Shown here one piece after another: positions 22,529 to 39,372 of a DNA stretch of 64,000 bases. Both the position numbers and the translations under genes were made by a program. The notes beneath the pieces were generated by a model. That model was not told the DNA's origin and made no database searches. It was given only the letters and a program-made list of their open reading frames with translations. How positions within the stretch are numbered: the first letter of the stretch is position 1; every line of letters begins with the position of its first letter. Source of the stretch: Tersicoccus phoenicis. Its GTDB lineage: Bacteria; Actinomycetota; Actinomycetes; Actinomycetales; Micrococcaceae. The stretch is taken from the NCBI RefSeq assembly GCF_001968835.1, contig NZ_MRDE01000016.1:124001-188000 (forward strand), written 5' to 3'.

Positions 22529-22535
22529 GCGATTC

Positions 22536-23828
22536 ATGACCACGACCACCAGTCCGCTGACCACCCTCGAGAGCCTCGCCCGTAAACCCACCAGGGGAAT
22601 CGCCGGCGATCCGGCCGACGGGCGCCTACCGCTCGCCGGCCGGGCCGACGGGCTCGTGGGATCCGTCATCGACTCCTCCACGTCCCTGCTCGCAGCGCAG
22701 CAGCACGACATCGTCCGGTTCGCGATGGGCGCCCCCGCGGCGGAGGCGATCCCGACTGCTCAGCTTCGCCGCATCGCCGCCGAGGTGCTCGACGCCTCCT
22801 CCTTCACCTACGGAGCGACCGAAGGCGAACCGGCGCTGATCGACGCGATCGTCGCGCACCGGTCCACCACGCCCGAGCCCACGCGGGCGGAGCGCCTGGT
22901 CGTCACGTCGGGCGGGATGCAGGGCCTGGACCTGGCGTTCAAGCTCTTCGTCGACCCGGGTGATCTCGTGGTGGTCGAGTCCCCCACCTACACGAACGGC
23001 TCCGCCACCGCGCTGAGCTACGGCGCTGACCTGCTCGAGGTGCCGGTCGACGAGGACGGCATGAACGTCGACGCGCTCGAGACGCTGGTCGGGGAAACCG
23101 GCCGGACCCCGAAGGTGATCTACACGATCCCGAACTTCCAGAACCCCTCGGGGACCACCCTGAGCCTGCGCCGCCGTACGCGCTTGCTGGAACTGGCGCA
23201 CCGCTGGGGCGCCATGATCATCGACGACGACCCGTACGGCGCGTTGCGCTTCGCCGGTGAGCACGTCCGCGGCTTCCGCGAGATCAGTCCGGACGACCCG
23301 CTGGTGTTCTCGGTGCGCACCTTCTCCAAGGAGCTCGCCCCCGGACTGCGCGTCGGCTGGGTCGACGCGGACGCCCGGCTGCGCCCGCTGCTGATCGCGG
23401 CGAAGCAGGCCATGGACACGTGCACCAACGTGCCGAACCAGCATCTCGTGGAGCGCTTCGTCAGCCAGGGCGGTTACGACCAGCACCTGGCCGGCCTGCG
23501 GCAGGAGTACCGGACGCGCAAGGAGGCGATGGACGCCGCGATCGCCCGGCACCTGGGTGGTCGCGTGACGACGACCGACCCCGACGGCGGCTTCTTCCTG
23601 TGGGTCACCCTCCAGGGTGAGGACGCGCGGGTCCCGACGCCGCGACTGTTCGAGATCGCCCTCGCCGAGGGTGTGGCCTTCATCCCGGGGCCCGCCCTCT
23701 CCCCGTCCGGTCGGTTCCAGGACGCCTTCCGCCTCTGTTTCGCCTCGACGTCCCCGGAGCGCACGGAGGTCGGCGTCGAGCGTCTGGCCCGCGCCCTGGA
23801 CCGCGCTCGCGTGGAGGTCGACCGCTGA
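22536..23828 (+). CDS. PLP-dependent aminotransferase, class I/II
   Basis: Fold-type I aminotransferase of 430 residues related to LysN/2-aminoadipate and MocR-type transaminases but with no DNA-binding domain. Landmarks are FTYGATEGEPAL near residue 87, VTSGGMQGLDLAFKLF near residue 122, YTIPNFQNPSGTTLS near residue 193, the cofactor-contact DDDPYGALRF near residue 230 and the Schiff-base Lys in SVRTFSKELAPGLRVGW near residue 266. It follows the M24 gene by seven bases. In this context it would accept an amino group from a product of the M24 or M20 hydrolases. Donor and acceptor are unknown. Confidence 0.9.
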   Translation: MTTTTSPLTTLESLARKPTRGIAGDPADGRLPLAGRADGLVGSVIDSSTSLLAAQQHDIVRFAMGAPAAEAIPTAQLRRIAAEVLDASSFTYGATEGEPALIDAIVAHRSTTPEPTRAERLVVTSGGMQGLDLAFKLFVDPGDLVVVESPTYTNGSATALSYGADLLEVPVDEDGMNVDALETLVGETGRTPKVIYTIPNFQNPSGTTLSLRRRTRLLELAHRWGAMIIDDDPYGALRFAGEHVRGFREISPDDPLVFSVRTFSKELAPGLRVGWVDADARLRPLLIAAKQAMDTCTNVPNQHLVERFVSQGGYDQHLAGLRQEYRTRKEAMDAAIARHLGGRVTTTDPDGGFFLWVTLQGEDARVPTPRLFEIALAEGVAFIPGPALSPSGRFQDAFRLCFASTSPERTEVGVERLARALDRARVEVDR

Positions 23829-23866: not shown

Positions 23867-25039
23867 GTGCTCGAGTTCCTGGACCGGGACGATCTCGTGG
23901 CCCTGACCCGTGCCCTGGTGGACGCCGGCGGTGAGAACCCGGGCGGCAGCGAGCAGAACACCGCCGAGGTGCTGGCCGCCGCCGCCCGGAAGCGGGGCCT
24001 GACCGCACGTCTGGAGCACGTCGCGCCCGGCCGTCCGAACGTGGACGTCGACCTCGAGCCGGGTGGCGCCATCGGTCACGGACCCGGCCTGCTGTTCCTC
24101 GGCCACTCCGACGTCGTACCCGCCGGGCCCGGATGGACCCGGGAACCGTTCCGATCGACGGTCGAGGACGGCCGCCTGTACGGACGGGGATCCACCGACA
24201 TGAAGGGCGGCCTGGCCGCAGTGCTGGTGGCCATGGCGGCGTTGCGGCGCGCCGACGCGCCGCTGGCCGGTCCCGTCCGACTCGCCTGCACCGTTGATGA
24301 GGAGGACCTCGGCCTGGGCATCCGGGCCCTGACCACCCGCGGGCTCGGCCGTCCCTTTCGGGGCTGTATCGTCGCCGAGCCCACCGACCTGCAGACGGTC
24401 GTGGGCTGCCGCGGCGATGCCTACCTCGAGGTCGAGATCAGCGGGGTGGCCGCCCATTCCGGCCGCCCGGCCGACGGCCGCAACGCGATCGACGCGGCTG
24501 CGCGCCTGCTCGATCTGGTCCGCGGCGACCACGACCGGATGCAGCACGACCTGGACCCCCTGCTCGGCGCCGGCACGTGGAATGTCGGGCGGATCGAGGG
24601 CGGCCGCGGCACCTCCGTGGTCGCCCCGTCGTGTCGGCTCTGGCTCGACCGGCGACTGATGCCCGACGAGGATCCGCAGCGGATCGCCGCCGACCTGGTC
24701 GAGGCCGCCGAGGTGGCCGGCATCACGGGAGACGGCATTCACCTGATGGTCGAGGTCACCATGGCGATGCCCGGCTTCCGCACGGACCCGGCCCACCCGC
24801 TCGCCGCCGCCGTGCACGACGCCGTCGACGCCGTCGACGGTCCCGCCTCCATCGGCGGCTGGACCGCCGCATGCGACGGCGGCTTCATCGCTCGCGATCA
24901 CGCCGTCCCGACGGTCGTGATGGGCCCGGGTGGGCTCAACGACCAGGCACACCAGGTCGACGAGTCCGTCGGCATCGACGAGTTGATGCTTGCGGCGCGC
25001 GCCTACGCCCTGAGCGCCTTGCGTCTGCTCGCCGTCTGA
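23867..25039 (+). CDS. M20-family amidohydrolase/deacylase (ArgE/DapE/ACY1 type)
   Basis: Zinc-dependent hydrolase of N-acyl or amide bonds, 390 residues. Metal ligands are the His of FLGHSDVVPAGPGW near residue 80, the bridging Asp of YGRGSTDMKGGLAA near residue 112, the catalytic and ligand acids of VDEEDLGLG near residue 146, and a late His in DQAHQVDE near residue 365. A dimerisation lid domain lies between about 185 and 295. The GTG at 23867 has no strong ribosome site, so it may be translated by coupling to the aminotransferase 38 bases upstream. In ectoine-type pathways a deacetylase acts after the ring hydrolase; an analogous role is possible. Confidence 0.87.
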   Translation: MLEFLDRDDLVALTRALVDAGGENPGGSEQNTAEVLAAAARKRGLTARLEHVAPGRPNVDVDLEPGGAIGHGPGLLFLGHSDVVPAGPGWTREPFRSTVEDGRLYGRGSTDMKGGLAAVLVAMAALRRADAPLAGPVRLACTVDEEDLGLGIRALTTRGLGRPFRGCIVAEPTDLQTVVGCRGDAYLEVEISGVAAHSGRPADGRNAIDAAARLLDLVRGDHDRMQHDLDPLLGAGTWNVGRIEGGRGTSVVAPSCRLWLDRRLMPDEDPQRIAADLVEAAEVAGITGDGIHLMVEVTMAMPGFRTDPAHPLAAAVHDAVDAVDGPASIGGWTAACDGGFIARDHAVPTVVMGPGGLNDQAHQVDESVGIDELMLAARAYALSALRLLAV

Positions 25040-25134: not shown

Positions 25135-26523
25135 CTAGCGGCTGATCACCGGCATCTTGCCGGTCTCCGGGATCGCGGTGCCCCGCAGCGACGCGCCGAC
25201 CGTCTCACGCATCGTCGACACGGCGATCAGACCGATCACGCAGGCACCCATCATGTAGAACGCCGGGATCAACGGGTTGGCGGTGGCGTCGATCAGCGCC
25301 TGGTTGGCCAGGGGAGCGGTGCCACCGAAGAGTGCCGTCGCGACGTTATAGGTGATGGCGAATCCGGCGAAGCGGACCTGGGTCGGGAACATGGCGGGGA
25401 AGGTCGCGGAGATGGTGGCCAGCTGCGGGATGTACAGCAGACCCAGCACCGCGAAACCGAGCAGCGCCCACCAGAAGCCATTGGCCATCAGCAGGTACAT
25501 CGGCACGGCCAAGACGATGAGACCGATCAGCGAGAGATACCACATCGGCTTGCGGCCGAGCCGGTCGGAGAGTGCTCCCGCGAAGGGGATCACGAGCATC
25601 ATGGCGAACTGCGCCAAGAACATGATGGTCAGTACGGTCTGCGCGTCCATGCCGGTCTGGCCTTCGAGATAGGTGGGCATGTAGCTCAGCAACGTGTAAT
25701 TGACCACGTTCAGGGCGATCACCAAGCCGGCCATTGTGAGCATGGGACGCCAGTACAGCCGGAACAGATCCTTCAAAGCCGTGCCGGCCGACGACTCGGC
25801 GTGACCGATCTCCTCCAGCTCCCGGAACACCGGCGAATCCGCCAGTCTGGTCCGCAGGTACAGTCCGATCAGTCCGAGCGGCCCGGCCAACAGGAATGGA
25901 ATGCGCCAGCCCCACTCCATCATGCCGGCTTCACCGATCGCCAGTCCGGCGAGCAGCACGATCAGCGAGCCCAGGGCGAACCCGGCGAGTGTGCCGAACT
26001 CGAGGAAACTGCCCAGGAACCCGCGCTTCTTGTCCGGCGCGTACTCGGCCATGAACGTCGCGGCACCGCCGTACTCGCCGCCCGTCGAGAAGCCCTGCAC
26101 CATACGTAGCAGCACGAGCAGGATCGGTGCCGCCACCCCGATGGTCTGGACGTTGGGAATGAGACCGAGACAGAATGTCGCGGCCGCCATCAGAATGATC
26201 GTCAGAGCAAGCACCCGTTTGCGCCCCAAACGGTCACCGAGCGGTCCCCAGAACAGTCCACCGAGCGGCCGGACCAGGAAGGAGAGCGCGAAGGTGCTCA
26301 GGGCGAGCAGCGTTCCGCCCTCTCCCGGAAAGAAGTTGTACGTGATGTAGGCGACGGAGACGCCGTACACGCCGTAGTCGAACCACTCCGTCGCGTTGCC
26401 GATGGCCGAGGCCGCCACAGCACGCCGCACGGTGCTCGCATCCGGCACCGGGAGGGTGGTTGCTCGATCCTGGTCGGGATGGGCGTGGGCCGCCGGGGGG
26501 CCGGGGTCGTTCGCGGAATTCAT
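25135..26523 (-). CDS. MFS transporter, metabolite:H+ symporter (MHS/ProP-like)
   Basis: Twelve-segment importer of 462 residues. The MHS signature is clear: ASAIGNATEWFDYGVYG near residue 39, RPLGGLFWGPLGDRLGRKRVL near residue 84, and LLRMVQGFSTGGEYGGAATFMAEYAP near residue 138. The second-half repeat GALSDRLGRKPMWYLSL is near residue 316. Family members take up proline, betaine, ectoine, shikimate, citrate or 2-oxoglutarate. The ATG at 26523 has GGGAGG six bases upstream. Its promoter carries palindrome site B. As the only transporter in the island it probably imports the substrate of the pathway. Confidence 0.92.
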   Translation of the reverse strand: MNSANDPGPPAAHAHPDQDRATTLPVPDASTVRRAVAASAIGNATEWFDYGVYGVSVAYITYNFFPGEGGTLLALSTFALSFLVRPLGGLFWGPLGDRLGRKRVLALTIILMAAATFCLGLIPNVQTIGVAAPILLVLLRMVQGFSTGGEYGGAATFMAEYAPDKKRGFLGSFLEFGTLAGFALGSLIVLLAGLAIGEAGMMEWGWRIPFLLAGPLGLIGLYLRTRLADSPVFRELEEIGHAESSAGTALKDLFRLYWRPMLTMAGLVIALNVVNYTLLSYMPTYLEGQTGMDAQTVLTIMFLAQFAMMLVIPFAGALSDRLGRKPMWYLSLIGLIVLAVPMYLLMANGFWWALLGFAVLGLLYIPQLATISATFPAMFPTQVRFAGFAITYNVATALFGGTAPLANQALIDATANPLIPAFYMMGACVIGLIAVSTMRETVGASLRGTAIPETGKMPVISR

Positions 26524-26600: not shown

Positions 26601-26612
26601 ATCGTCAACGAT
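26601..26612. promoter_or_regulatory. Shared palindrome site B (ATCGTCAACGAT), MHS transporter promoter
   Basis: ATCGT-CA-ACGAT is symmetric. On the minus strand it holds TTGACG as a -35 box, followed after 17 bases by TACGTT, about 55 bases before the transporter ATG. The site overlaps the last codons of the amidase gene. Arrangement matches site A. Confidence 0.65.
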
Positions 26613-28062
26613 CTGACGATTTGATTTGTCCCAGGGAACCGCCATGCGATGGAACCGAGTCGGTCCGGGCCGGGCGCTCGGTCCCCCAGGCCGCCGCCCG
26701 CTCGTACGCGCGGGCCGCCCGCAGCACGGTGCGGTCCGCGTGCCGGGGGCCGACCACCTGGAGAGCGGCCGGTAGTCCGGCAGCGGTGAAGCCGCACGGA
26801 ACGCTCACCGCGGGCTGCTGCGTCATGTTGAAGGGGTAGGTGTAGGGGGTCCAGCTGGTCCAGTCGGGGGATCCCCACCCCTCCGGGACGTCGTCGCCAC
26901 GCTGGAAGGCAGGAATGGGCAGCGTGGGGGTGACCAGCACGTCGTACGTCTGATGGAAGCGACCCATGGTGACGCCCAGGTCCATCCGGACCGCCGTCGC
27001 ATCGAGGAAGTCGGACGCGCTGATCGGGCCCAGACTCTCGATCGACCGGCGCAGACCGGGGTCCACCCGTTCGATGGCGTCGGGTGCGTAGCTGTCCAGG
27101 ACCTTGGCGGCGCCGGCGAACCACAGGACGTGGAAGGCCTCGACCGGGTCGGAGAACCCTGGGTCCACCTCGTCGACGACGGCGCCGAGCTCCTCGAGCG
27201 TCGCTGCGGCGGCGCGGACCAGCGCGTCCACCTCGGGGTCGTTGTGGCCGAAGCCGAGGGTCGGGGAATAGGCCACCCGGAGGCCGGCGACACCGTCGTC
27301 GAGCCCGTCCTGGAAGGACTCGCGAGGCGTGGGCAGAGCTGACCAGTCGCGGGAGTCGAATCCCGTGATGACGTCGAGCAGCAGTGCCGCGTCGGCCACG
27401 GTACGGGTCATCGGCCCGGCGTGGGCCAGGGTGCCGAACGGGCTGGCCGGGTACATGGGGACGAACCCGAAGGTCGGTTTGATCGCCACCGTGCCGGTGA
27501 ACGCGGCCGGGATCCGGACCGAGCCGCCGCCGTCAGTGCCCACCGACCACGGGCCCATGCCGAGCGCCACGGCGGTAGCGCTTCCGCCGCTGGAACCGCC
27601 CGAGGTCAGACGGGGGTCGTACGGGTTGCCGGTCGAGCCGTGGCGCAGTGAGTCGGTCACGCCCTTCCAGGCGAACTCCGGCGTCGTGGTCTTGCCCAGG
27701 AGCACGGCCCCGGTCTCGCGAAGCCGGGCCACGCACGGCGCGTCCTCGTTCCAGGGCTGGTTCTCCTCGATGAGGCGCGTCCCGCGCAGGGTCGGCCAGC
27801 CGCGGGTGTAGAAGATGTCCTTGACGGAGGTGGGGATGCCGTCGCCGGGCCCGAGGGGGGACCCGGCGCACCACCGGGTCTCGGCTGCCCGGGCGGCGGT
27901 CAACGCCGCATCGGCCTCGACGCGGACGAAGGCATTGACCGGGCCGTCCCGGTCCTCGATCGCCTGCAGGGCGGCGCGGGTAGCGTCCACCGGCGAGAAG
28001 TCACCCCGGCGATAACCCTCGATCAGCTCCACGGCCGTCAGATCCACCAGGTCGCTCGACAT
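26605..28062 (-). CDS. Amidase (amidase signature family)
   Basis: Hydrolyses a carboxylic amide, 485 residues. The Ser-cis-Ser-Lys triad is visible: Lys in PTSVKDIFYTRG near residue 80, the cis-Ser in LTSGGSSGGSATAVALGMGPWSVGTD near residue 155, and the nucleophile Ser in DGGGSVRIPAAFTGTVAIKPT near residue 181. The Gly/Ser-rich signature is complete. The C-terminal part is normal for the family, ending in a polar tail. It is divergent from the GntR gene, with two palindromes between them. The substrate could be a carboxamide intermediate or the imported compound. Confidence 0.92.
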   Translation of the reverse strand: MSSDLVDLTAVELIEGYRRGDFSPVDATRAALQAIEDRDGPVNAFVRVEADAALTAARAAETRWCAGSPLGPGDGIPTSVKDIFYTRGWPTLRGTRLIEENQPWNEDAPCVARLRETGAVLLGKTTTPEFAWKGVTDSLRHGSTGNPYDPRLTSGGSSGGSATAVALGMGPWSVGTDGGGSVRIPAAFTGTVAIKPTFGFVPMYPASPFGTLAHAGPMTRTVADAALLLDVITGFDSRDWSALPTPRESFQDGLDDGVAGLRVAYSPTLGFGHNDPEVDALVRAAAATLEELGAVVDEVDPGFSDPVEAFHVLWFAGAAKVLDSYAPDAIERVDPGLRRSIESLGPISASDFLDATAVRMDLGVTMGRFHQTYDVLVTPTLPIPAFQRGDDVPEGWGSPDWTSWTPYTYPFNMTQQPAVSVPCGFTAAGLPAALQVVGPRHADRTVLRAARAYERAAAWGTERPARTDSVPSHGGSLGQIKSSDR

Positions 28063-28267: not shown

Positions 28268-28948
28268 GTGCCATCCCATCCGCAGACCAAGCTGCTGGAA
28301 CCCGTCGTCCAGGAGACGACGCCCGCACTGATCGCCCGCCAGTTGCGCCGGGCGATCGGCCGGGGGGAACTGGCCCCGGGACAACAGCTGAACGAGACGG
28401 AGCTGAGCCGGAGCCTCGGCGTGAGCCGAGGGCCGCTGCGGGAAGCGATGCAGCGGCTGACGCAGGAAGCCCTGCTCGTGAGCATCCGCAATCGTGGTGT
28501 CTTCGTCGCGGAGGTCACCGACGACGACATGCGAGACATGTATCTCGCGCGGACCGCTGTGGAGCGGGCCGCCGCGACCCGCCTGGTCCAGCTGGACCCG
28601 GCCGCAGCCGCGCCGCAGCTGCTCGCGGTGGTGCAGCGCATGGCCGCGGCGGCGGACCGCGACGACGCGAACGCCCTGACCGAGGCGGACATCGATTTCC
28701 ACGCCCTGCTGGTCTCCCTCGCGGGCAGCCCCCGGCTCGTGCGTATGCACGCCACCCTGATGGTGGAGACGCGGATGTGCATCACGGCCCTGGAGGACCG
28801 CTACAGCTCCCATTCCGTGCGCACGGAGGAACACCGGGCCATCGCCGAGGCCATAAGCGACGCGGACCTCGAACGCGCGGACCGCCTGCTGAAGGCCCAC
28901 ATGGAGGACGCGCTCGACCGCCTCGCCGGCTCGGCCGCCCAGGCGTAG
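28268..28948 (+). CDS. GntR-family regulator (FadR subfamily, FCD domain)
   Basis: Likely the local regulator of the catabolic island. The 226-residue protein has an N-terminal winged helix-turn-helix (residues 18-75: LIARQLRRAIGRGELAPGQQ, then LNETELSRSLGVSRGPLREAM) and an all-helical FCD effector domain (about 85-215). Candidate metal/ligand residues are the Asp of ADIDFHALL with His near residue 144, and later His in TEEHRAIAEA near residue 192. FadR-type proteins bind TNGTNN(N)ACNA palindromes, which the seven ATTGT-NN-ACAAT-like sites of the island fit. GTG 28268 follows GGAGGAA. FCD regulators usually release DNA on binding a small organic acid. Confidence 0.9.
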   Translation: MPSHPQTKLLEPVVQETTPALIARQLRRAIGRGELAPGQQLNETELSRSLGVSRGPLREAMQRLTQEALLVSIRNRGVFVAEVTDDDMRDMYLARTAVERAAATRLVQLDPAAAAPQLLAVVQRMAAAADRDDANALTEADIDFHALLVSLAGSPRLVRMHATLMVETRMCITALEDRYSSHSVRTEEHRAIAEAISDADLERADRLLKAHMEDALDRLAGSAAQA

Positions 28949-29012: not shown

Positions 29013-30503
29013 TCAGACCCGCGGCACCGCCAGGTACTTGTACTCGAGGAACTCGTCGATGCCCACGCGGCCGCCCTCCCGGCCGATGCCCGACGCCTTG
29101 ACTCCGCCGAACGGGGCGGCGGGGTTGGAGACGATGCCCGTGTTCAGGCCGACCATCCCCACTTCCAGGCGCTCCCCGACGCGAAAGCTACGGTCCACGT
29201 CCTGCGTGAAGAGGTAGCCGACCAGCCCCCACGGCGTGTCGTTGGCCATCCGGAGAACGTCCTCCTCCGTGTCGAAGGGGATCACCGGGGCGACGGGGCC
29301 GAAGATCTCCTGGTCCATCAACTCCGACCCAGGGTCGACGCCGGAGAGCACGGTCGGCCTGTAGAAGTACCCCGGTCGGTCCGGGCGCGATCCCCCGCAG
29401 ACGACGGTGGCACCACGGGAGACGGCGTCATCGACGAGTTCCTGAACCTTGGTCAGCGCCTTGGGTTCGACCAGCGGCCCCACGTCCGTGCCGTCCTCGG
29501 CCCCGTCGCCCACGGCCAGGTCACCCAGCCGTGCCGCCAGCCGCTGGGCGAAGTCGTCGGCGATGGACCGGTGCACGAACAGCCGGTTCGCGGCGGTGCA
29601 GGCTTCCCCCATGTTGCGCATCTTGGCCGCGACCGCCCCGTCGACGGCCCGGTCCAGGTCGGCGTCCTCGAAGACGATGAAGGGAGCGTTGCCGCCGAGC
29701 TCCATCGAGGACCGCATCACATGCTCGGCGGCCTGCTCGAGCAGACGCACGCCGACGGCGGTGGAGCCGGTGAAGCTGATCTTGCGGGCGATGCCGCTGG
29801 ACATCCAGGGGCTGACCACGGCGGAGGGGTCCGTGGTGGTCACGACGTTGAGCACCCCGTCCGGCAGCCCCGCCTCGACCAGGATGTCGACCAGGGCGAG
29901 GGAGGACAGCGGGGTGAGGTTGGAGGGTTTGAAGACGATGGTGCAGCCGGCGGCGAGGGCGGGACCGATCTTGCGGGTGCCCATGGCCAGCGGGAAGTTC
30001 CACGGGGTGACCAGGACGCAGGGCCCGACCGGTTCGCGGGACACAAGCACGCGGGTCTTCCCGTCACCGGTGCTGGTCTGGTCGCCGCCGATCCGCACGG
30101 CTTCCTCGGAGAACCACCGGAAGAACTCCGCGGCGTAGGCCACCTCGCCCTTCGCCTCCGCGAGGGGCTTGCCCATCTCGGTGGTCATGATCAGGGCCAG
30201 GTCGTTCTGCCGTTCCATGATCGCGTCGTAGGCGCGGCGCAGGATCTCGCTGCGTTCCCGGGGCGCGGTGCGGGCCCACTGCGCCTGGACGCGGCCGGCG
30301 GTCTCGATGGCGCGCCTGGCGTCCTCGGGTCCGCCGTCGGCGACGGTGGCGATGACCTCTTCGGTGGCGGGGTTGACCACGTCGAAGCGAGCGCCGGAGG
30401 CGGCCTCGCTCCACTGGCCGTCGATGAAGACACCGGTGTGGACGCCATCGATCACCTGGCGGGCGCGGTCGGACGTGCGGGCGGTGCCGGTGGGAGCGGT
30501 CAT
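29013..30503 (-). CDS. NAD(P)-dependent succinate-semialdehyde-type dehydrogenase
   Basis: Aldehyde dehydrogenase of 496 residues. TPWNFPLAMGTRKIGPALAAGC is near residue 167, the NAD motif SFTGSTAVGVRLLEQ near residue 242, the catalytic Glu in MELGGNAPFIVFEDAD near residue 268, and the catalytic Cys in NMGEACTAANRLFV near residue 302. The closest familiar group is GabD; ectoine-type pathways use a similar enzyme on aspartate semialdehyde. Its ATG overlaps the stop codon of the upstream FAD/Fe-S gene by four bases, so the two are coupled. With the class III aminotransferase two genes upstream it forms an amine to aldehyde to acid sequence. Confidence 0.92.
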   Translation of the reverse strand: MTAPTGTARTSDRARQVIDGVHTGVFIDGQWSEAASGARFDVVNPATEEVIATVADGGPEDARRAIETAGRVQAQWARTAPRERSEILRRAYDAIMERQNDLALIMTTEMGKPLAEAKGEVAYAAEFFRWFSEEAVRIGGDQTSTGDGKTRVLVSREPVGPCVLVTPWNFPLAMGTRKIGPALAAGCTIVFKPSNLTPLSSLALVDILVEAGLPDGVLNVVTTTDPSAVVSPWMSSGIARKISFTGSTAVGVRLLEQAAEHVMRSSMELGGNAPFIVFEDADLDRAVDGAVAAKMRNMGEACTAANRLFVHRSIADDFAQRLAARLGDLAVGDGAEDGTDVGPLVEPKALTKVQELVDDAVSRGATVVCGGSRPDRPGYFYRPTVLSGVDPGSELMDQEIFGPVAPVIPFDTEEDVLRMANDTPWGLVGYLFTQDVDRSFRVGERLEVGMVGLNTGIVSNPAAPFGGVKASGIGREGGRVGIDEFLEYKYLAVPRV

Positions 30504-33500
30504 GGGGTGTCCTCGTTTCCGTTCGTGGGGTCATCGCTGATCGGGGTGGCCGCACCGGCGTGCACCGGTGCACCGGGATCGAGAATCTGCGCCAGGTGCC
30601 GCCCGGACCGCGTGGAATCGAGCTGCTCGATCTGCCGGGCGCAGGAGAAGCCGTCGGTGAGCACTACCGCGCCGGGACCGGACTCCCGGAGGGCGGGAGC
30701 GAGAGCATTCTCCGCGACCTGCATGCTGATCTCGTGGTGCTGTGCCTCGAATCCGAAGTTGCCGGCCACTCCGCAGCACCCAGTGGCATCGTGGATCTGC
30801 TGCACGCCCGCGGCGGTCAGGGCGGCGCGCTGCGGGCCGGCCCCGAACGCCGAGTACTCGTGGCAGTGGGTCTGCAGCACCACCCGCTCGGGTACGGGTC
30901 GACCCGGTGCCGGGGTCCAACCGGTCGCCGCGCGCTCGGCCACGTGGGTGGCGAAGCTGCGGACCCGGGCGGCAACGCGACGGGCCTGTTCGGTGGGCAC
31001 GAGCTCGGGCAGATCCGTGTGCAGGGCCGCCGCGCAACTGGGCTCGACGACGACGATCGGCCGGTTCGTGCCGTCGTCGAGAGCAGCGGCCGCCTTCGCC
31101 AGGCGCTTCCGTGCGGTGTCCAGCTGCCCGGTGGAGATCCAGGTCAGCCCGCAGCAGGCGTCGGCGGCGCAGGTTACGGGCTCGCCCGCTCCGGCGAGCA
31201 CGCGGGCGGCCGCACCGGCCACCTCCGGGCGGAAGCCGCGGGTGAAGGTGTCGATGAACAGGACCGCGCCGGCGTCCCGGTCACCGTGCGCGCCCGCGGG
31301 CGACACCCCGGCCGCCGCCACCTCCCGGCACCACGCGTCCGCGGGGGCGAACCGGGGCAGGCGGCGTTTTGTGGTCAACCCGCCGGCGACGGCGGCCAGC
31401 TTCCCCAGCGGCGTGGCCAGCACCGCGTTGACGAGCGGGGCGACCCGGCCGGTGAGCACCAGCCAACGGGGCAACCAGCCGAGGGAGAAGTGCGAGGCCG
31501 GGCGGAGCCGGCGCCGGTAGTAGTGGTCGAAGAACTCGGCCTTGTACGTGGCCATGTCGACGCCGGCCGGACAGTCGGTGGCGCATGCCTTGCAGGACAG
31601 GCACAGGTCCAGCGCCTCGCGGACCTCCGGGGAGCGCCACCCGTCACCCGTCGTGCGAGCTCCGCGGACCATGTCCTGGAGCACGCGGGCTCGGCCGCGG
31701 GTGGAGTCCTTCTCGTCGCGGGTCGCTCGGTAGCTCGGGCACATCACGCCGCCGGTGTCGGCGCGGCACCGGCCGACACCGATGCACCCCTGGACGGCGT
31801 GCACCCACGGGTCGGGCGCGGAGGCGGTCGCTTCCGTCGGCTCGCTTCCGGCACCGACCGCCCGCAGGTCGAAGCTCGTGCGCCAATCGCGCGCCGGGAC
31901 GCCCTCGAGCGCCAGGTGCGCGTCGAACGCGTCGGGCTCGGTCATCGATCCCAGGTTGAGGATGCCGACCGGGTCCCATAGCCGGCGGTAGTGCTGGAAG
32001 GCGGCGAGCAGATCGGCGGAGTACATCAGCGGGAGCAGTTCGGACCGGGCGCGCCCGTCGCCGTGTTCGCCGGACAGGGAGCCGCCGTGGCGGACCACCA
32101 GGCGGGCCGCGGCCCGGGTGAACGCGCGGAACACGGTGCGGCCCTGCTCGGTACGCAGGTCGTAGGTGATCCGGATGTGCAGGCAGCCGGCACCGAAGTG
32201 CCCGTACATCACGCCGGTCAGGCCGTGCTCGGCCAGCAGCAGGCGCAGGTCCCCGAGGTAGTCGGCAAGTCGGTTGGGGCTGACCGCCGAGTCCTCCCAG
32301 CCCGGCCAGGACTCGCCACCGCCCGCGAGCCGGGAGGAGAGCCCGGCGCCGTCCTCCCGCACGCGCCACAGGGAGGCCCGGTGTCCGAGGTCCGGCACCG
32401 CGCGGCCCTCCACCAGCCGACCGTCGGTGGCCAGCCGGACGAGCAGCCGGTCCGCCTCCGCGGCGACCGCGGCAGCGTCGTCCCCGTCCAGGTCGACGAA
32501 CAGCCACGCGTGCCCGGCGGGCAGCCCCAGCACCGAGTCCGGCCCACGCCGGAACCGCATCGTCTCGACGATCGCCTCGTCGGTGCCCTCCACGGCCGCC
32601 GGGGAGAACTCGAGGATGGTGGTGACATCCCGGGCGGCGTCGACGATGTCGTCGTAGCCGAGGCAGACCAGCAGGGCGGTGGCCGGCTTGGGCACGAGCG
32701 TCATCCGCGCGCCCACGACGACGGCGCACGTGCCCTCCGAACCCACCAGGGCGCGTGCCACGTCGAACTCCCGCTCCGGCAGCAGATGCTCCAGGTGATA
32801 GCCGGAGACCTGCCGCTGGATCCGACCGAGCTCGAGGCGGAAGGTGGCCAGATTGTCCTGGGCGAGCCGGCGCAGCGATGTGGTCAGCTCCGCGGCGCGG
32901 GCGATGGAGACACGGTCGTCCGGGTCGGTCGCCCGCAGCCCGGTGCGGTGCGCGGTGAGGCGCGCCCCGTCCACGGTGACGACATCGATCTCCTGCACGT
33001 GGTCCGAGGTCCGCCCGTAGCGTACAGAGTGGTTGCCGCACGCGTCGTTGCCGATCGACCCGCCCACCGTGGCGCGCGTCTTCGACGAGGGGTCGGGGGC
33101 GAACGTCGCCCGGCCGTCCGTCACCTCCTCCACCCGCCGAGTGAGGTCCGCCAGCACGACGCCGGGGTCGACGTCCACCGTGCCGGCGGCCTCGTCGACT
33201 CCGCGGATCCGGTTCAGATGCCGGGAGAAGTCCAGTACCACGCCGGGGCCGATCGCGTTGCCGGCCATGGAGGTGCCCCCGCCGCGCGCGGTCAGCGGCG
33301 TGCCGGTTTCCCGGCACGCCCGCACCGTGGCCACCACCTCGTCCACGTTGCGCGGGAAGACGACGGCCACCGGTGACACCCGATAGTTGGACGCGTCATA
33401 GGCGTACTCGGCCAGCCGGCGGGACGACGCGTCGGCGTCGACCCCCAACTCGCGGAGTCGGCCCAGCAGTGCGCCGTCGACACGTTCGGTGGCCGCCCTG

Positions 33501-33526
33501 CCGGGTGGCGTCTGGACGTGGCTCAC
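30500..33526 (-). CDS. FAD-binding and 4Fe-4S D-2-hydroxyacid dehydrogenase-like protein (YdiJ type)
   Basis: A 1008-residue fusion. The N-terminal PCMH-type FAD domain spans about residues 40-270 (PLTARGGGTSMAGNAIGPGVVLDFSRHLN; DPSSKTRATVGGSIGNDACG). An FAD-oxidase C-terminal domain follows to about 560. Two Cys clusters form a ferredoxin-like region: GCIGVGRCR with MCPSYRATRDEKDSTRGRAR, and LCLSCKACATDCPAGVDMATYK near residue 640. Two CCG domains end the protein (ADACCGLTWIST near 805; DATGCCGVAGNFGFE near 920). This architecture is that of D-2-hydroxyglutarate/D-lactate oxidising enzymes that pass electrons to the respiratory chain. GTG 33526 starts eight bases after the aminotransferase stop. 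Confidence 0.9.
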   Translation of the reverse strand: MSHVQTPPGRAATERVDGALLGRLRELGVDADASSRRLAEYAYDASNYRVSPVAVVFPRNVDEVVATVRACRETGTPLTARGGGTSMAGNAIGPGVVLDFSRHLNRIRGVDEAAGTVDVDPGVVLADLTRRVEEVTDGRATFAPDPSSKTRATVGGSIGNDACGNHSVRYGRTSDHVQEIDVVTVDGARLTAHRTGLRATDPDDRVSIARAAELTTSLRRLAQDNLATFRLELGRIQRQVSGYHLEHLLPEREFDVARALVGSEGTCAVVVGARMTLVPKPATALLVCLGYDDIVDAARDVTTILEFSPAAVEGTDEAIVETMRFRRGPDSVLGLPAGHAWLFVDLDGDDAAAVAAEADRLLVRLATDGRLVEGRAVPDLGHRASLWRVREDGAGLSSRLAGGGESWPGWEDSAVSPNRLADYLGDLRLLLAEHGLTGVMYGHFGAGCLHIRITYDLRTEQGRTVFRAFTRAAARLVVRHGGSLSGEHGDGRARSELLPLMYSADLLAAFQHYRRLWDPVGILNLGSMTEPDAFDAHLALEGVPARDWRTSFDLRAVGAGSEPTEATASAPDPWVHAVQGCIGVGRCRADTGGVMCPSYRATRDEKDSTRGRARVLQDMVRGARTTGDGWRSPEVREALDLCLSCKACATDCPAGVDMATYKAEFFDHYYRRRLRPASHFSLGWLPRWLVLTGRVAPLVNAVLATPLGKLAAVAGGLTTKRRLPRFAPADAWCREVAAAGVSPAGAHGDRDAGAVLFIDTFTRGFRPEVAGAAARVLAGAGEPVTCAADACCGLTWISTGQLDTARKRLAKAAAALDDGTNRPIVVVEPSCAAALHTDLPELVPTEQARRVAARVRSFATHVAERAATGWTPAPGRPVPERVVLQTHCHEYSAFGAGPQRAALTAAGVQQIHDATGCCGVAGNFGFEAQHHEISMQVAENALAPALRESGPGAVVLTDGFSCARQIEQLDSTRSGRHLAQILDPGAPVHAGAATPISDDPTNGNEDTP

Positions 33527-33534: not shown

Positions 33535-34815
33535 TCAGGCGCCCGTGGTGCCCGCGGGGACGGCACCGCTGACGGCGGCCACCGCGGCCTCGAATCGCTC
33601 CAGTCCCGTGGCGATCTCCTCCTGGGTGACGACGAGCGCGGGGATCAGCCGCACCACGTTGCCCGCGGGACCGCAGGTCAGGGTGAGCAGACCCTGGCTG
33701 GTCGTGCCCTGCTGCACGGCGGTCGCAGTCGCGGCGTCCGGGGTTCCGTCGGCCGCGGTGAACTCGATGCCCTGCATCAGGCCGAGCCCGCGGACGTCGC
33801 CGATCGCCGGGAAGCGGGCCTGGATCTCTTTCAGTCCCGCCTGGAGCTGATCGCCGCGGACCCGGGAGTTCTCCACCAGGTCCTCCTCCTCGATCACGTC
33901 GAGGGTGGCGACGGCGGCCGCGGCGGAGACCGCGTTGCCCCCATAGGTGCCACCCTGCGACCCCGGCCAGGCCTTCGCCATCATTGCGGTCGGCGCCGCG
34001 ATCGCGGAGATCGGGAACCCGGAGGCGATGCCCTTGGCGGTGATGAGGATGTCGGGCGTGGCCGAGGAGTGCTGGTGGCCCCAGAAGCGTCCGGTGCGGC
34101 CCACCCCGGCCTGCACCTCGTCGAAGATCAGCGCGATCCCGTGCCGGTCGGCCCGCTGGCGGAGCCCCTCCATGAAGGCCGGCGGCGTGGGCAGGTAGCC
34201 ACCGTCGCCCAGCGCGGGCTCGATCAAGAAGGCCGCGGTGTCGGCGGGAGCCGTGCGGGTCTCGAGCAGGTAGTCGAGTTCCTGCAGGGCGAAGGCGACG
34301 GCCGTCTCCTCGTCCCAGCCGTACCGGTAGGCGTAGGGGAACGCCGACATGTGCACCCCGGCCATCAGCGGTGCGAAGCCGGCGGAGAACTTCGTCCCGG
34401 CGGTGGTCAGGGAGGCGGCCGCCACGGTACGGCCGTGGAAACCGCCCTGGAAGACGACGATGTTGGGCCGTGCCGTGGCCATCCGGGCGAGGCGGATGGC
34501 GGCCTCGACGGCCTCCGAGCCGGAGTTGGCGTAGAAGACGGAGTCGAGTCCGGCGGGGAGCACGTCCCCGAGTTTCTCCGTCAACTCCAGCAGGGGCGGG
34601 TGCATGACGGTGGTGAACTGCGCGTGGATGACCTTTCCGATCTGCTCCCGAGCGGCCGCCACGACCCGGGGGTGGCAGTGGCCGGTGCTGGTGACGCCGA
34701 TGCCAGTGGTGAAGTCGAGGTAGGCCCGGCCGTCGGTGCCGTGGATCCAGCTGCCGAGCGCGTGGTCCACCACCACCGGGGTCGCCTGCTTCAGTACGGG
34801 GCTCAGAGATGTCAT
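33535..34815 (-). CDS. Class III aminotransferase (GabT/ectoine-pathway Atf-like)
   Basis: PLP enzyme of 426 residues that transfers an omega-amino group. Landmarks are GIGVTSTGHCHPRVV near residue 38, FYANSGSEAVEAAIRLAR near residue 93, FHGRTVAAASLT near residue 125, the cofactor Asp in IALIFDEVQAGVGRTG near residue 225, and the Schiff-base Lys in ITAKGIASGFPISA near residue 265. It is the first gene of an operon with the FAD/Fe-S enzyme and aldehyde dehydrogenase, under palindrome site E. ATG 34815 has AAGGATG upstream. GABA, diaminobutyrate or a related omega-amino acid are plausible substrates. Confidence 0.92.
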   Translation of the reverse strand: MTSLSPVLKQATPVVVDHALGSWIHGTDGRAYLDFTTGIGVTSTGHCHPRVVAAAREQIGKVIHAQFTTVMHPPLLELTEKLGDVLPAGLDSVFYANSGSEAVEAAIRLARMATARPNIVVFQGGFHGRTVAAASLTTAGTKFSAGFAPLMAGVHMSAFPYAYRYGWDEETAVAFALQELDYLLETRTAPADTAAFLIEPALGDGGYLPTPPAFMEGLRQRADRHGIALIFDEVQAGVGRTGRFWGHQHSSATPDILITAKGIASGFPISAIAAPTAMMAKAWPGSQGGTYGGNAVSAAAAVATLDVIEEEDLVENSRVRGDQLQAGLKEIQARFPAIGDVRGLGLMQGIEFTAADGTPDAATATAVQQGTTSQGLLTLTCGPAGNVVRLIPALVVTQEEIATGLERFEAAVAAVSGAVPAGTTGA

Positions 34816-34843: not shown

Positions 34844-34855
34844 ATTGTCAACAAT
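34844..34855. promoter_or_regulatory. Shared palindrome site E (ATTGTCAACAAT)
   Basis: Perfect ATTGT-CA-ACAAT between the divergent class III aminotransferase (start 34815) and D-2-hydroxyacid dehydrogenase (start 34873). On the minus strand it contains TTGACA. On the plus strand TACAGT at 34861-34866 is a -10 candidate whose start point would fall at the GTG codon. Confidence 0.72.
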
Positions 34856-34872
34856 AAGCGTACAGTGATGAC

Positions 34873-35889
34873 GTGAGTGAGTTCGCGCCGTTCCCCACCA
34901 CGCCCGACGGTTCCGCGGCCCGGCGGCCGACGGTGGTCGTCCTGACCGCGCCGGGCACGGCACCGCCCACCAACACCGCGGCGCTGGAACGCCACGCCGA
35001 GCTCGTGTTCACCGACGCCGCCGGTCTTCCCGCCGCTCTGCCGGGCGCCTCCGTCCTGTTCGTGTGGGACTTCTTCTCCACCGCGCTGCGGGACGCGTGG
35101 GTGCACGCGGACGCCCTGGAATGGGTGCACGTGGCCGCGGCCGGCGTCGACTCGCTGTTGTTCGACGGGTTGCGGGACTCGGGCGTGACGGTGACCAACG
35201 CGCAGGGGGCGTTCGACGGGCCGATCGCCGAGTTCGTGCTGGCCTCGGTCCTGGCTCACGACAAGCAGCTGCACCAGAGCCGGCGGCTGCAGGACCGAGC
35301 CGTCTGGCGGCATCGTGAGGTGCAGCGCAGCGCGGGCCGACGGGCCCTCGTGGTGGGGACCGGTGGAATCGGACGAGCCACCGCCCGACTGCTGCGCGCG
35401 GTCGGCATCGAGGTCCGCGGCGCCGGCCGCACCGGCCGCGACGACGACCCCGACCTCGGCCTCGTGGTGCCCAGCGCCGAACTGGCCGACCACGTCGGAT
35501 GGGCCGACCACGTGGTGCTGATCGCGCCGCTGACGGCGGCCACCCGCGGGCTCGTGGACGCCCGGGTGTTGGCCCGGATGAAGCCGACGGCCCACCTGGT
35601 CAACGTCGGGCGTGGCGCCCTGCTGGACGAACCGGCCCTGGTGACGGCCCTGCGGACCGGTACGATCGCCGCCGCCTCCCTGGACGTCTTCACCGAGGAG
35701 CCGCTGCCGGCGGACCACCCCTTCTGGCGCCTCGAGAACGTGCAGGTCTCGGCCCACATGAGCGGGGACGTCGTCGGGTGGCGGGACACGCTCGCCCAGC
35801 AGTTCGAGGACAATCTCCTCCGGTGGTGCGCCGGCACCGGCCTGCGCAACGTCGTCGACAAACAGGTCGGCTACGTACGCAGCAGCTGA
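34873..35889 (+). CDS. D-isomer-specific 2-hydroxyacid dehydrogenase
   Basis: NAD(P)-dependent interconversion of a 2-oxoacid and its D-2-hydroxyacid, 338 residues. VDSLLFDG precedes the nucleotide-binding motif VVGTGGIGRATARLL near residue 161. The catalytic residues are Arg in VNVGRGALLDEPAL near residue 243, Glu in FTEEPLPADHPFW near residue 274, and His in VQVSAHMSG near residue 296. The start GTG 34873 has no ribosome site but lies one promoter length from site E, so a leaderless message is likely. Paired with the FAD/Fe-S oxidase it could run a 2-oxo/2-hydroxy step; glyoxylate-type substrates are also possible. Confidence 0.9.
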   Translation: MSEFAPFPTTPDGSAARRPTVVVLTAPGTAPPTNTAALERHAELVFTDAAGLPAALPGASVLFVWDFFSTALRDAWVHADALEWVHVAAAGVDSLLFDGLRDSGVTVTNAQGAFDGPIAEFVLASVLAHDKQLHQSRRLQDRAVWRHREVQRSAGRRALVVGTGGIGRATARLLRAVGIEVRGAGRTGRDDDPDLGLVVPSAELADHVGWADHVVLIAPLTAATRGLVDARVLARMKPTAHLVNVGRGALLDEPALVTALRTGTIAAASLDVFTEEPLPADHPFWRLENVQVSAHMSGDVVGWRDTLAQQFEDNLLRWCAGTGLRNVVDKQVGYVRSS

Positions 35890-35933
35890 TCCGCACCGGC
35901 CCCGGACCCCGGCGCGGGACCCCGGGGCGATGC

Positions 35934-36437
35934 TCAGGCGTCGGCCGCTCGGGCGAAGGCCAGCGTCTCGCCTCGCGCGCCGCCCATCCAGACGTCCTGA
36001 CAGGCGGCGGCCAGCTCGTCCAGCCCCTGCTCGATGGTCGCGAACACGTTGCCGGGCACCCAGCCGACATCGCCGTTGAGGAGCAGGTTGTTCCGCCCGT
36101 AGAAGACGGCCAGATCGATGAGCAGCCGGTTCTCCGCGGTGCCCGCGGAGGCGTCGTACCCGTAGGCGGGATTGTCGAGGACGCCCTCGAAGCTGAAGTA
36201 GCAGAGGTCCCCGGGAATCGGCGTCACCGTCTGGTTCTCCGGTCCCGGTTCCTGCTCGGCGAACGCCGGCACCAACGTGTAGATCTCGTTCCGAGCGAAC
36301 TTGCCGTGGAACACCTGGCCCGCGGTCGGCAGGGCCTGCCACACCGCTTCGGCGGTGCGTGGCGCCTCCGCGTCGAGCAGTCGGGCCCGCGCCGAGACGC
36401 CGCGCTGCTGAAGGGTGATCGTGATGTATCGGCTCAT
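35934..36437 (-). CDS. DUF3830 family protein (cyclophilin-like fold)
   Basis: A 167-residue protein of unknown function. It matches DUF3830 in length and in the blocks EAPRTAEAVWQALPTAGQVF (residues 24-43), HGKFARNEIYTLVP, TVTPIPGDLCYFSF near residue 85, LAVFYGRNNLLLNGDVGWVPGN near residue 115 and a C-terminal helix with QDVWMGGARGE. The family has a cyclophilin-like barrel, and no activity is known to me. Conserved Arg, Glu, Tyr and Asn residues cluster in these blocks as an active site would. It is divergent from the first racemase-like gene with palindrome site F between them, so it belongs to the regulon. Confidence 0.85.
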   Translation of the reverse strand: MSRYITITLQQRGVSARARLLDAEAPRTAEAVWQALPTAGQVFHGKFARNEIYTLVPAFAEQEPGPENQTVTPIPGDLCYFSFEGVLDNPAYGYDASAGTAENRLLIDLAVFYGRNNLLLNGDVGWVPGNVFATIEQGLDELAAACQDVWMGGARGETLAFARAADA

Positions 36438-36481
36438 GCGCGTCTCCGCTCGTCATCGGATCGTTCCGAGCATTCTCGAAC

Positions 36482-36495
36482 GATTGTCTACAATC
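36482..36495. promoter_or_regulatory. Shared palindrome site F (GATTGTCTACAATC)
   Basis: Perfect six-base arms GATTGT and ACAATC around CT, between DUF3830 (start 36437, minus) and the racemase-like gene (start 36550, plus). Confidence 0.7.
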
Positions 36496-36549
36496 CAACT
36501 GTAAGCTTTCCATCGAGGGATGCAACCGTCGAGAAGGAGTGCCCGCGCC

Positions 36550-37263
36550 ATGCACACGATCGCCATCCTCTACCCCGGCCACAGCGCGGAGGACGAGTTC
36601 GCCGCCCTCGAATCCGTCATCCCCGACAGCGCCTTTCCCGTCGTCCACACCTGGGAGGGGGCCACCGACCACGACGTTCAGGCCCTGCTCGATCTCGGCG
36701 CCCGGGACCAGCTGGAGCCGGCCGCTGAGCAAGCCCGCGCCGTCTCCCCCGACGCGGTGATGTGGGCGTGCACCTCCGGGAGCTTCGTGTACGGGAGCGA
36801 GGGCGCCCGGGAGCAGGCGAGTTGGGTCGAGCAGGCGGCGGGCGTCCCGTCCTCGTCGACGTCCCTCGCCTTCGTGGCGGCGGTGCACCGGCTCGGCCTT
36901 CAGCGCGTCGCGGTGGCCGCAACGTATCCCGCCGCGGTTGCCGCCCACTTCTCCGGGCTGCTCGAGCAGGACGGGATCACCGTCACCTCCCTGTCCACCT
37001 ACGACGTGCCCAGCGGGGAGGACGCCGGACGGCTCGATGCCGCGTGGGTGTTGGACACGGCGCGTACCGCCGATCTCACCGGCGCGCAGTGCGTGCTGAT
37101 CCCCGACACCGCCCTGCACACCATCGCCGTGTTGCCCGAGCTCGAGGCCGCCCTCGGCCTGCCGGTCCTGACCGCGAACCAGGTCACCGCCTGGCAGGGG
37201 CTCGTGCTCGCCGGCCATCCGGCGCGGGCCGACGGGCTCGGCGCCCTCTTCGCTGCCGCCTGA
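36550..37263 (+). CDS. Asp/Glu racemase-superfamily protein, second catalytic Cys replaced
   Basis: A 237-residue member of the Asp/Glu racemase, maleate isomerase and arylmalonate decarboxylase superfamily. The first active-site loop is intact, MWACTSGSFVYGSEGA near residue 78. The second reads LIPDTALHT near residue 189 where the island's other paralog has VSCTNLPT, so the second Cys is an Asp. The following segment GLPVLTANQVTAWQGL is shared by both. Loss of one Cys rules out a symmetric two-Cys racemase and suggests a lyase, decarboxylase or isomerase with one nucleophile. ATG 36550 has AAGGAG nine bases upstream. It converges with the paralog, 27 bases apart. Confidence 0.85.
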   Translation: MHTIAILYPGHSAEDEFAALESVIPDSAFPVVHTWEGATDHDVQALLDLGARDQLEPAAEQARAVSPDAVMWACTSGSFVYGSEGAREQASWVEQAAGVPSSSTSLAFVAAVHRLGLQRVAVAATYPAAVAAHFSGLLEQDGITVTSLSTYDVPSGEDAGRLDAAWVLDTARTADLTGAQCVLIPDTALHTIAVLPELEAALGLPVLTANQVTAWQGLVLAGHPARADGLGALFAAA

Positions 37264-37290
37264 CGTGCTGGCGACCGGGCTCGGGGTCGG

Positions 37291-38031
37291 TCAGACGGCG
37301 CCGAGGCGCTGGTCCGGTGCCGCCAGCCGCAGTCCCAGTCGGCGCAGCCCGGCCCACGCGGTCACCTGGTTGGCGGTGAGCACCGGTTTGCCGAGTTCGT
37401 CCTCCAGCGCGGTGATGATGGCGAAGGTCGGCAGGTTGGTGCAGGAGACGAACACGGCCTCGGCGTCGGGATGGTCGGCGTCGCGCACGAGATCGGCCGT
37501 CACCGAGTAGGGCACGTGCCAGATCAACCGGTCGAGACCGAGGCCGGCCGTGCGGACCACGGTACGGTCGTCGACCTGGAGGAAGTCCTCGAGCAGGGCG
37601 GTCAGTCGGGCGACGTACGGCGTGGCGATGGCCAGGCGTTGGACGCCGAGCACGTCGAGCGCCTCGAGCAGAGCCTCCGACGTGGTCACCGCGGGGGCGG
37701 ACGTCTCTTCGGTGATGGCCTGCGCGATCCGCCGAGCCCCGGCGACGCCGTTGACGAAACTGCCCGAGGTGCAGGCGAAGACGACGGCCTCGGGTTCGAC
37801 GGCGGCCAAGGAACGCGCGGTGGCCCGAATCTCGGCATCGTCACCGAGAGCACTGGCCATCAACTCGTCCACCGCTAGCGGATGATGGGGCGTCCGCGCG
37901 ACCACGAGGGACACGTCGTCCGGCATCCAGCGCCACAGTTCCCGGTCCAACGCCATGTCGTAGGGGTTGACGACCCCGATCACCCGATCCGGGCTCGGGC
38001 CGTCGGGGATGAAGCGCTGCACCGTGGGCAT
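37291..38031 (-). CDS. Asp/Glu racemase-superfamily protein (maleate isomerase-like), both Cys present
   Basis: A 246-residue protein with the two active-site Cys of maleate isomerases and racemases: VFACTSGSFVNGVAGA near residue 87 and VFVSCTNLPTFAIIT near residue 197. GKPVLTANQVTAWAGL follows. EutA-type members of this superfamily occur in ectoine utilisation clusters. ATG 38031 is preferred to ATG 38046 because the -10-like CAGTAT at 38050-38045 would put the start point between them. Palindrome site G lies just upstream. The presence of two diverged paralogs in one regulon suggests successive or joint action. Confidence 0.87.
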   Translation of the reverse strand: MPTVQRFIPDGPSPDRVIGVVNPYDMALDRELWRWMPDDVSLVVARTPHHPLAVDELMASALGDDAEIRATARSLAAVEPEAVVFACTSGSFVNGVAGARRIAQAITEETSAPAVTTSEALLEALDVLGVQRLAIATPYVARLTALLEDFLQVDDRTVVRTAGLGLDRLIWHVPYSVTADLVRDADHPDAEAVFVSCTNLPTFAIITALEDELGKPVLTANQVTAWAGLRRLGLRLAAPDQRLGAV

Positions 38032-38127: not shown

Positions 38128-39372
38128 ATGAACTCCCCGCTTCCCGACGCCCGCACCCGACTCGCCGATGCCCACCGGCACGAGGCACTGCTCTCGGAGC
38201 GTGCGCTGCACATCAAGCAGTCGGCGGTGCGCAACGTCTTCGACATCTCGATGCGGCCGGGACTGATCTCGCTCGCCGGAGGCAACCCGTTCGTGCAGAC
38301 CCTGCCCATGGCAGAGCTCGGGGACATCGCCCGTGAGCTGATCGCCCACCAGGGACCCGTCGCCCTGCAGTACGGCAGCGGCCAGGGCACCGAGGAGCTG
38401 CGCCGGGCGATCTGCGGCGTGATGGCCGAGGAGTCGATCACGGACGCCGTGCCGGAGAACGTCATCGTGACCGCCGGCGCCCAGTCCGCCCTCGACGCCT
38501 GCACGCGCATCTTCTGCGACCCCGGTGACGTCGTGCTGACCGAGGATCCGACCTACGTCGGCGCCCTGAACACGTTCGAGGCGTACGAGGTGGACGTCCG
38601 CCCGGTCCCGTCCGATGAGCAGGGTCTGCTGCCCGACGAGCTGGAGCGGGCCATCACCGCCGTGCGAGCGGAGGGGAAGCGGGTCAAGTTCCTCTACACG
38701 ATCCCGTCGTTCGCCAACCCGTCCGGCGCCGTGCTGGCCCCGCAGCGGCGGCAGCGGGTGGTGGACGTGTGCCGGGAGGCGAACGTGCTCGTCGTGGAGG
38801 ACAACCCCTACGGGATGCTCGCGTTCGACGGCGACCCGGCCCGTCCGCTGCGGGCGGACAACCCGGACGACGTCGTCTACCTCGGCACATTCTCGAAGAT
38901 CTTTGCCCCGGGCCTCCGGCTGGGCTGGTTGCTCGCACCGGCACACCTGAAGCAACGCCTGTACTTGGCGAACGAGTGCGTGGTGCTGTGCCCGCCGGCG
39001 TTCAACCAGATGCTCGCCGTCGAGTACCTGCACCGGTTCGACTGGGTGGCGCAGGTCGATTCCTACCGAGAGGTCTACCGGAAGCGCGCGGAGGCGATGG
39101 TCGCCGCACTGGCGGACACCATGCCGTCGGGCGTGCACTGGACGACCCCCACCGGCGGCTTCTTCGTCTGGTTGACCCTGCCGGAGCAGCTGGACGCGGA
39201 GGCCCTGCTCGGCCCGGCCATCGAAGCCGGCGTCGTCTTCGTGCCCGGCAGCGCCTTCACGGCAGCGGACGGCCCCAGCCCGAACCTGCGGCTCTCCTTC
39301 AGCGCTGTCGAGGAGGACGAGATCGCCGAGGGGGTGCGGCGCTTAGCGGCAGTGATCCGCGCCGCGCTGTAG
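38128..39372 (+). CDS. PLP-dependent aminotransferase, class I/II (LysN-like)
   Basis: Fold-type I aminotransferase of 414 residues without a DNA-binding domain. Landmarks are LISLAGGNPFVQTLP near residue 46, LQYGSGQGTEELR near residue 78, VTAGAQSALDACTRIFCDPGD near residue 114, YTIPSFANPSGAVLAP near residue 190, EDNPYGMLAFDG near residue 223 and the Schiff-base Lys in GTFSKIFAPGLRLGW near residue 257. It is a distant paralog of the aminotransferase at 22.5 kb and the last gene with the shared palindrome. The 167 bases after it show no gene. The start ATG is divergent from the second racemase-like gene. Confidence 0.9.
   Translation: MNSPLPDARTRLADAHRHEALLSERALHIKQSAVRNVFDISMRPGLISLAGGNPFVQTLPMAELGDIARELIAHQGPVALQYGSGQGTEELRRAICGVMAEESITDAVPENVIVTAGAQSALDACTRIFCDPGDVVLTEDPTYVGALNTFEAYEVDVRPVPSDEQGLLPDELERAITAVRAEGKRVKFLYTIPSFANPSGAVLAPQRRQRVVDVCREANVLVVEDNPYGMLAFDGDPARPLRADNPDDVVYLGTFSKIFAPGLRLGWLLAPAHLKQRLYLANECVVLCPPAFNQMLAVEYLHRFDWVAQVDSYREVYRKRAEAMVAALADTMPSGVHWTTPTGGFFVWLTLPEQLDAEALLGPAIEAGVVFVPGSAFTAADGPSPNLRLSFSAVEEDEIAEGVRRLAAVIRAAL

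Follow-up and report, generated by a model that had tools for sequence, protein, structure and literature searches.

The 64,000-nucleotide window analyzed here, which belongs to contig NZ_MRDE01000016.1 of Tersicoccus phoenicis, raises the question of what two convergent genes of the Asp/Glu racemase superfamily do side by side when one of them has no Cys at the second catalytic position. The plus-strand gene (36550..37263), preceded by an RBS-like AAGGAG about 10 nt 5' of its ATG, encodes protein A of 237 aa, and the minus-strand gene (37291..38031) encodes protein B of 246 aa; 27 bases (37264-37290) separate the two stop codons. The initial annotation had described them as superfamily paralogs that end 27 bases apart, and the coordinates, a BLASTP alignment (39% identity over 181 aa, E 7e-30) and a profile-profile comparison of 70 A and 62 B sequences (probability 100%, E 4e-43, 235 columns) bear this out. 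Its account of the motifs also holds. B carries both Cys loops, FACTSGSF (C87) and VSCTNLPT (C197), and thus a Cys on both faces of the site, whereas A has WACTSGSF (residues 72-79, tgg gcg tgc acc tcc ggg agc ttc, with the Cys74 codon at 36769..36771 of the plus strand) but IPDTALHT at the second site, where the second catalytic Cys of the segment VLIPDTALHT (ctg atc ccc gac acc gcc) is replaced by Asp186 (37105..37107, plus strand). The stretch PVLTANQVTAW is present in both proteins, as had been noted. A 1227-codon open reading frame opposite gene A (33535-37218, minus strand) was rejected as a high-GC artefact that continues into the aminotransferase gene.

Both proteins are members of the Pfam Amdase family PF17645 (84 bits for A and 96 bits for B; cut-off 25.9), and both fail the more specific NCBIfam models for arylmalonate decarboxylase (AMDase; equivalog NF052327, 84.4 and 85.8 bits versus a cut-off of 225) and EutA (TIGR02990, 71 and 108 bits versus 318). 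An AMDase identity is excluded by the NF052327 scores together with the residue pattern, which is Cys/Asp in A and Cys/Cys in B versus Gly74/Cys188. AlphaFold predicts a pseudo-symmetric two-domain fold (mean pLDDT 97.2 for A and 95.0 for B); the best PDB matches of the A model in Foldseek were maleate isomerase (TM 0.90) and AMDase (0.86-0.87), and the models of A and B both match these two enzymes at TM values of about 0.8-0.9. In the profile-profile alignment, P185-D186-T187 of A fall on S196-C197-T198 of B without a gap, so that the second Cys has been substituted in A; a shift of this Cys, which the initial annotation had left to be checked by alignment, is thereby ruled out. The alignment of A with AMDase agrees, since C74 corresponds to residue 74 and D186 to Cys188.

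The Asp is a feature of the whole A lineage and did not arise by chance in this strain. When 297 genomes of the order were searched with the whole protein, 20 A genes were retrieved, one of them that of the window and the remaining 19 with 45-58% identity; all members of this motif-unbiased set possess WACTSGSF and PDTA[ML], with Asp186 invariant. The same residue is invariant in 70 aligned A sequences, a set that is motif-biased as most of it stems from a motif scan; further invariant residues of this alignment include E14, H41, C74, T75, S76, and Y126. Loci of the contig scan had been found via motifs containing WACTSGSF/PDTA, and motif conservation was judged instead on loci from whole-protein and profile searches. 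B orthologs retain both Cys. In a 58-sequence tree, a quick reconstruction with long branches in which fine placements are uncertain, A and B form separate clades (SH-aLRT 98 and 99%). The A clade contains a Nitratireductor plasmid protein with the Cys/Asp signature of A and a Rhizobium protein with a Cys/Cys pattern (PCTA at the Asp position of A). The depth of the two clades and the proteobacterial members within that of A indicate an old split and exclude a recent tandem duplication as the origin of the pair. An origin from phages or plasmids was also discarded, as there were no phage matches and the plasmid relatives are remote. Variation within the A clade does occur. In family f34 (loci L167 and L170-L172), A has a Ser for Cys74 (SSTSASF), keeps Asp186 and adjoins a normal two-Cys B; the Cys is consequently not essential in this family, and the Asp may matter more. 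Another A-clade protein, encoded by ORF 1249-2049 of locus L023 (genome G222), has FGVTSASF and VPETALHT, i.e., no Cys at all and a Glu instead of Asp186.

A and B are also tightly associated in genomes. At 86 of 95 A loci, B was found inside the examined flanks, mostly in tandem B->A arrangement (59 loci) or convergent (22 loci), with a median gap of 99 bases, and 19 of the 86 pairs are 0.5-10 kb apart. Of the 9 loci with no flanking B, 8 belong to genomes with a strong B elsewhere, so that a true absence of B at these loci is mostly wrong; a few lineages retain just one of the two genes. The pair has a frequent companion, the DUF3830 (PF12903) protein, which is encoded next to A in the window (35934..36437, minus strand), occurs at 74 of 88 mapped A loci and has an uncharacterized structural representative (PDB 3kop). 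Counted over the rows listed for a phylum-wide set of 397 genomes, A is present in 24, a large-type DUF3830 in 19 and both in 18, and all 18 have B as well. The six genomes with A alone belong to one genus, g95, which is probably Streptomyces, judging by synteny with named contigs. In genome G498, B and DUF3830 occur but A does not. A second, weaker-scoring type of DUF3830 (E about 1e-23 to 1e-33) was seen in the phylum sample, chiefly in f34 genomes and mostly where A is lacking. Since A, B, and DUF3830 are the only genes found together at five Nesterenkonia loci besides the window, this trio is the smallest recurring unit. A tblastn search for DUF3830 in plasmids gave no match, and the domain is not named in any paper found by our literature search.

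The surrounding genes point to a catabolic pathway. The typical cluster comprises, in addition to the trio, an amidase (in the window at 26605..28062, minus strand, exceeding the NF004815 cut-off; 69 of the 88 mapped loci), a D-isomer-specific 2-hydroxyacid dehydrogenase (34873..35889, plus; 63/88), a GntR/FCD-family regulator (28268..28948, plus; 69/88), a class-III aminotransferase of the GABA/DABA type (33535..34815, minus; 55/88), and a succinate-semialdehyde-dehydrogenase-like (SSADH) aldehyde dehydrogenase (29013..30503, minus; 45/88). Less constant are a ProP-like MFS transporter of the compatible-solute type (25135..26523, minus; 31/88) and a fused FAD-linked oxidase/Fe-S protein resembling YdiJ/GlcD-GlcF (30500..33526, minus; 14/88). 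A DoeA/EutD-like M24 ectoine-hydrolase homolog (21410..22525, plus; DoeA-like at 20/88), a class-I/II aminotransferase-like PLP protein, AT12 (22536..23828, plus; class-I/II aminotransferase at 21/88), and, following them, an M20 ArgE/DapE-type deacylase (23867..25039, plus; M20 at 23/88) form a collinear trio (21410-25039), which is seen repeatedly, at about 20 A loci; a second class-I/II aminotransferase (38128..39372, plus), of the same cluster family as the gene at 22536-23828, adjoins B. Ehu permease/ATPase genes are present at about 18 of the 88 loci, and EhuA, B, C, and D scored above the NCBIfam ectoine equivalog cut-offs in the sampled loci. The genome of the window has no EhuB above the cut-off, only the ProP-like transporter. 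From these Ehu and ProP carriers and the nearby DoeA-like hydrolase, the substrate of the A/B pathway is probably ectoine, 5-hydroxyectoine, or a similar solute. EutABC are required for the use of 5-hydroxyectoine, by reactions whose exact nature is unknown (PMC8739950). For Gram-positive bacteria, the breakdown of ectoine is so far only a prediction (PMC13188858). By tblastn, EutC was found at 0 of 96 loci and EutB at 2 of 96, and the genome of the window has no OCD-family (EutC-type) gene; these searches exclude that EutB or EutC had been overlooked. A related observation concerns a Sinorhizobium plasmid (L140, 536363-537127), on which a gene annotated as arylmalonate decarboxylase adjoins EhuABCD, a DABA transaminase, and an aldehyde dehydrogenase; the product has both Cys and resembles B closely, so its annotation is probably wrong.

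Our best explanation, with a rough probability of 0.4, is that A and B are anciently diverged enzymes of a single catabolic pathway for ectoine, 5-hydroxyectoine, or a related cyclic amidine, in which B would be an epimerase or isomerase and A a lyase or dehydratase. As A and B travel together through the Actinobacteria in an apparently ectoine-type pathway, A is probably a distinct, cofactor-free enzyme and not a broken copy. Points against the explanation are that the DoeA-like gene is present at just 20 of the 88 loci, its copy in the window being 46% identical to an annotated DoeA but falling short of the equivalog cut-off (398 versus 613 bits), that the genome of the window lacks an EhuB above the cut-off, that C74 is replaced by Ser in f34, that the decay of A in genomes without B is no more than suggestive once corrected for the tree, and that the Ehu models might accept transporters for other solutes. 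This last point leads to the alternative that the pathway does not serve ectoines and that A and B act on another small amide or lactam imported by Ehu or ProP, which we regard as a real possibility, though short of an even chance. The amidase, DUF3830, and the 2-hydroxyacid dehydrogenase are more constant members of the cluster than DoeA, and an Aminobacter plasmid carries Ehu-labelled permeases with sarcosine oxidase genes; against this stand the above-cut-off scores of EhuA, B, C, and D in the loci tested and the very recurrence of the DoeA-like gene.

If the pair does serve ectoine-type catabolism, the pathway would run without EutB and EutC. B would catalyze a 1,1-proton transfer, as an epimerase or racemase, or a cis-trans isomerization. 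The roles that we infer for C74, D186, and H41 of A would fit a different reaction: A retains T75, S76, and Y126, the hole for the substrate carboxylate, C74 could give an enediolate or a covalent Cys adduct, and Asp186, on the opposite face, might act as a general acid/base that directs the intermediate away from reprotonation and towards elimination or addition, as in a dehydratase or lyase. A more specific version, in which A founds a Cys/Asp class and, needing no cofactor, performs an elimination on an acid derived from hydroxyectoine, while B provides the right epimer and DUF3830 and the amidase replace EutB/EutC and DoeB in an actinobacterial pathway for ectoine and hydroxyectoine, is speculative and, taken as a whole, unlikely. 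It is somewhat unlikely that A is instead a racemase or isomerase with an unbalanced Cys/Asp pair, so that A and B would be two epimerases or isomerases for different substrates or directions. A precedent is EcL-DER, which is cited in PMC12661438 as a natural one-Cys Asp/Glu racemase with an unbalanced acid/base pair (Thr83/Cys197), and in maleate isomerase the first Cys, which A has kept, forms a covalent succinyl-cysteine in the C194S mutant (PDB 2xed title). An Asp would, however, presumably be poorer at carbon-proton transfer in this scaffold, and our literature search found no described member that uses one.

Genomes that have lost B provide further information on the function of A. From the Streptomyces-like genus, 118 A genes were inspected at five sites (H41, C74, T75, S76, and D186). 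All five are intact in 75 of 77 A genes with a linked B, as compared to 3 of 41 genes with none, and one of these three has B on another contig; the Fisher test (p 6e-25) is not tree-corrected. After tree correction, 8 independent contrasts remain, of which about 5 go in the expected direction and 0 in the opposite (sign test, p ~0.06), a suggestive signal that is consistent in direction but based on few events. The decay is selective: A sites that are at least 97% conserved in B-linked genes are still 84% retained where B is missing, and the structural glycines and prolines persist, so the B-less A proteins are folded but have a decayed active site. The B-less loci that span at least 12 kb have no DUF3830 in 35 of 35 cases and no amidase in 33 of 35, but EhuB and EhuD are kept in 34 of 35. 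The loss of the catalytic residues alongside B, DUF3830, and the amidase suggests that these residues are selected only while that unit exists, and the Cys/Asp site of A seems to be used only in the pathway of B. At loci L155-L160 and some 35 others of the Streptomyces-like group, the B-less A is kept as an open frame with its fold core, with catalytic residues gone and Ehu retained beside it; this form of A may be decaying slowly or serve a second purpose other than catalysis.

The same data make it improbable that A is a pseudo-enzyme that has little or no catalytic activity and joins B as a subunit in a hetero-oligomer, an association that the initial annotation had named as one option. The near-obligate pairing and the replacement of Cys74 by Ser in f34, where B remains Cys/Cys, would suit such a role, but a silent subunit needs none of the five residues, which are near-invariant in the presence of B and among those lost in its absence, and the separation of the two genes by 0.5-10 kb in 19 of the 86 pairs also argues against it. 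Least probable of all is that A is a one-Cys decarboxylase for malonate-type acids, and thus a naturally occurring equivalent of the (S)-selective AMDase variant G74C/C188S that was obtained by engineering, because the AMDase fold and family, the Cys at position 74, the conserved T75/S76/Y126, and the presence of the mutant structure 3ixl among the top fold matches are set against the score of 84 versus 225 bits, an invariant charged Asp where engineered enzymes carry small neutral residues, a 20,000-fold lower rate of G74C/C188S than of the wild type (PMC12576825), and the absence of malonate-type pathway genes from the cluster. The earlier proposal of two diverged enzymes therefore stands in part: Cys/Cys and Cys/Asp paralogs are co-maintained by selection and the Cys has been replaced, but the link to AMDase through the loss of one Cys is unsupported, as wild-type AMDase lost the first Cys, the reverse of A, and both proteins score only 84-86 bits.

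The fold, the superfamily, and the existence of one-Cys members were already known, whereas the literature searched, which covered few subscription journals, yielded no conserved Cys/Asp subfamily that goes together with a Cys/Cys enzyme. A widespread gene pair that differs at one catalytic position offers two comparable proteins for assay. The pair would show how a racemase scaffold gains new chemistry and would suggest a function for DUF3830, and A, as a natural one-Cys scaffold, is also of interest for biocatalysis.

Likenesses and differences emerge between this pair and known systems. AMDase (NF052327; PDB 3dg9 and 3ixl) shares with A the Pfam family, the fold, and the residues T75, S76, and Y126, which form its carboxylate-binding (dioxyanion) hole (PMC4996985), but the wild-type enzyme has Gly74/Cys188 (PMC4996985), so that A is its mirror image and B, with Cys/Cys, differs from both. 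EcL-DER, too, has lost the first Cys, whereas A lost the second (PMC12661438). Maleate cis-trans isomerase (PDB 2xec, 2xed, and 4fq7) is the best fold match of A and a close one of B and has the first Cys in common with them; it differs from A in having two catalytic Cys, its identity to A and B is just 16-26%, and no nicotinate-type maleate pathway genes were identified in the A/B cluster. EutA, the activity of which is itself unknown (PMC8739950), has the same fold and superfamily and two Cys as in B; B scores 108 bits with the EutA model and 86 bits with that of AMDase, and is thus nearer to EutA. Like the A/B loci, with their DoeA-like (21410-22525 in the window) and Ehu (about 18/88) genes, eutA is located with ectoine transport and hydrolase genes; it differs in that its partners eutB and eutC are absent from almost all A/B loci, that there is one copy per operon and not two paralogs, and that A has an Asp for the second Cys. 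The proline-racemase superfamily, which has another fold and no homology to A and B, provides an analogy only: it contains Cys/Cys racemases as well as the Cys/Thr trans-3-hydroxy-L-proline dehydratase, and there the exchange of one catalytic Cys converts the scaffold of a racemase into that of an enzyme for beta-elimination.
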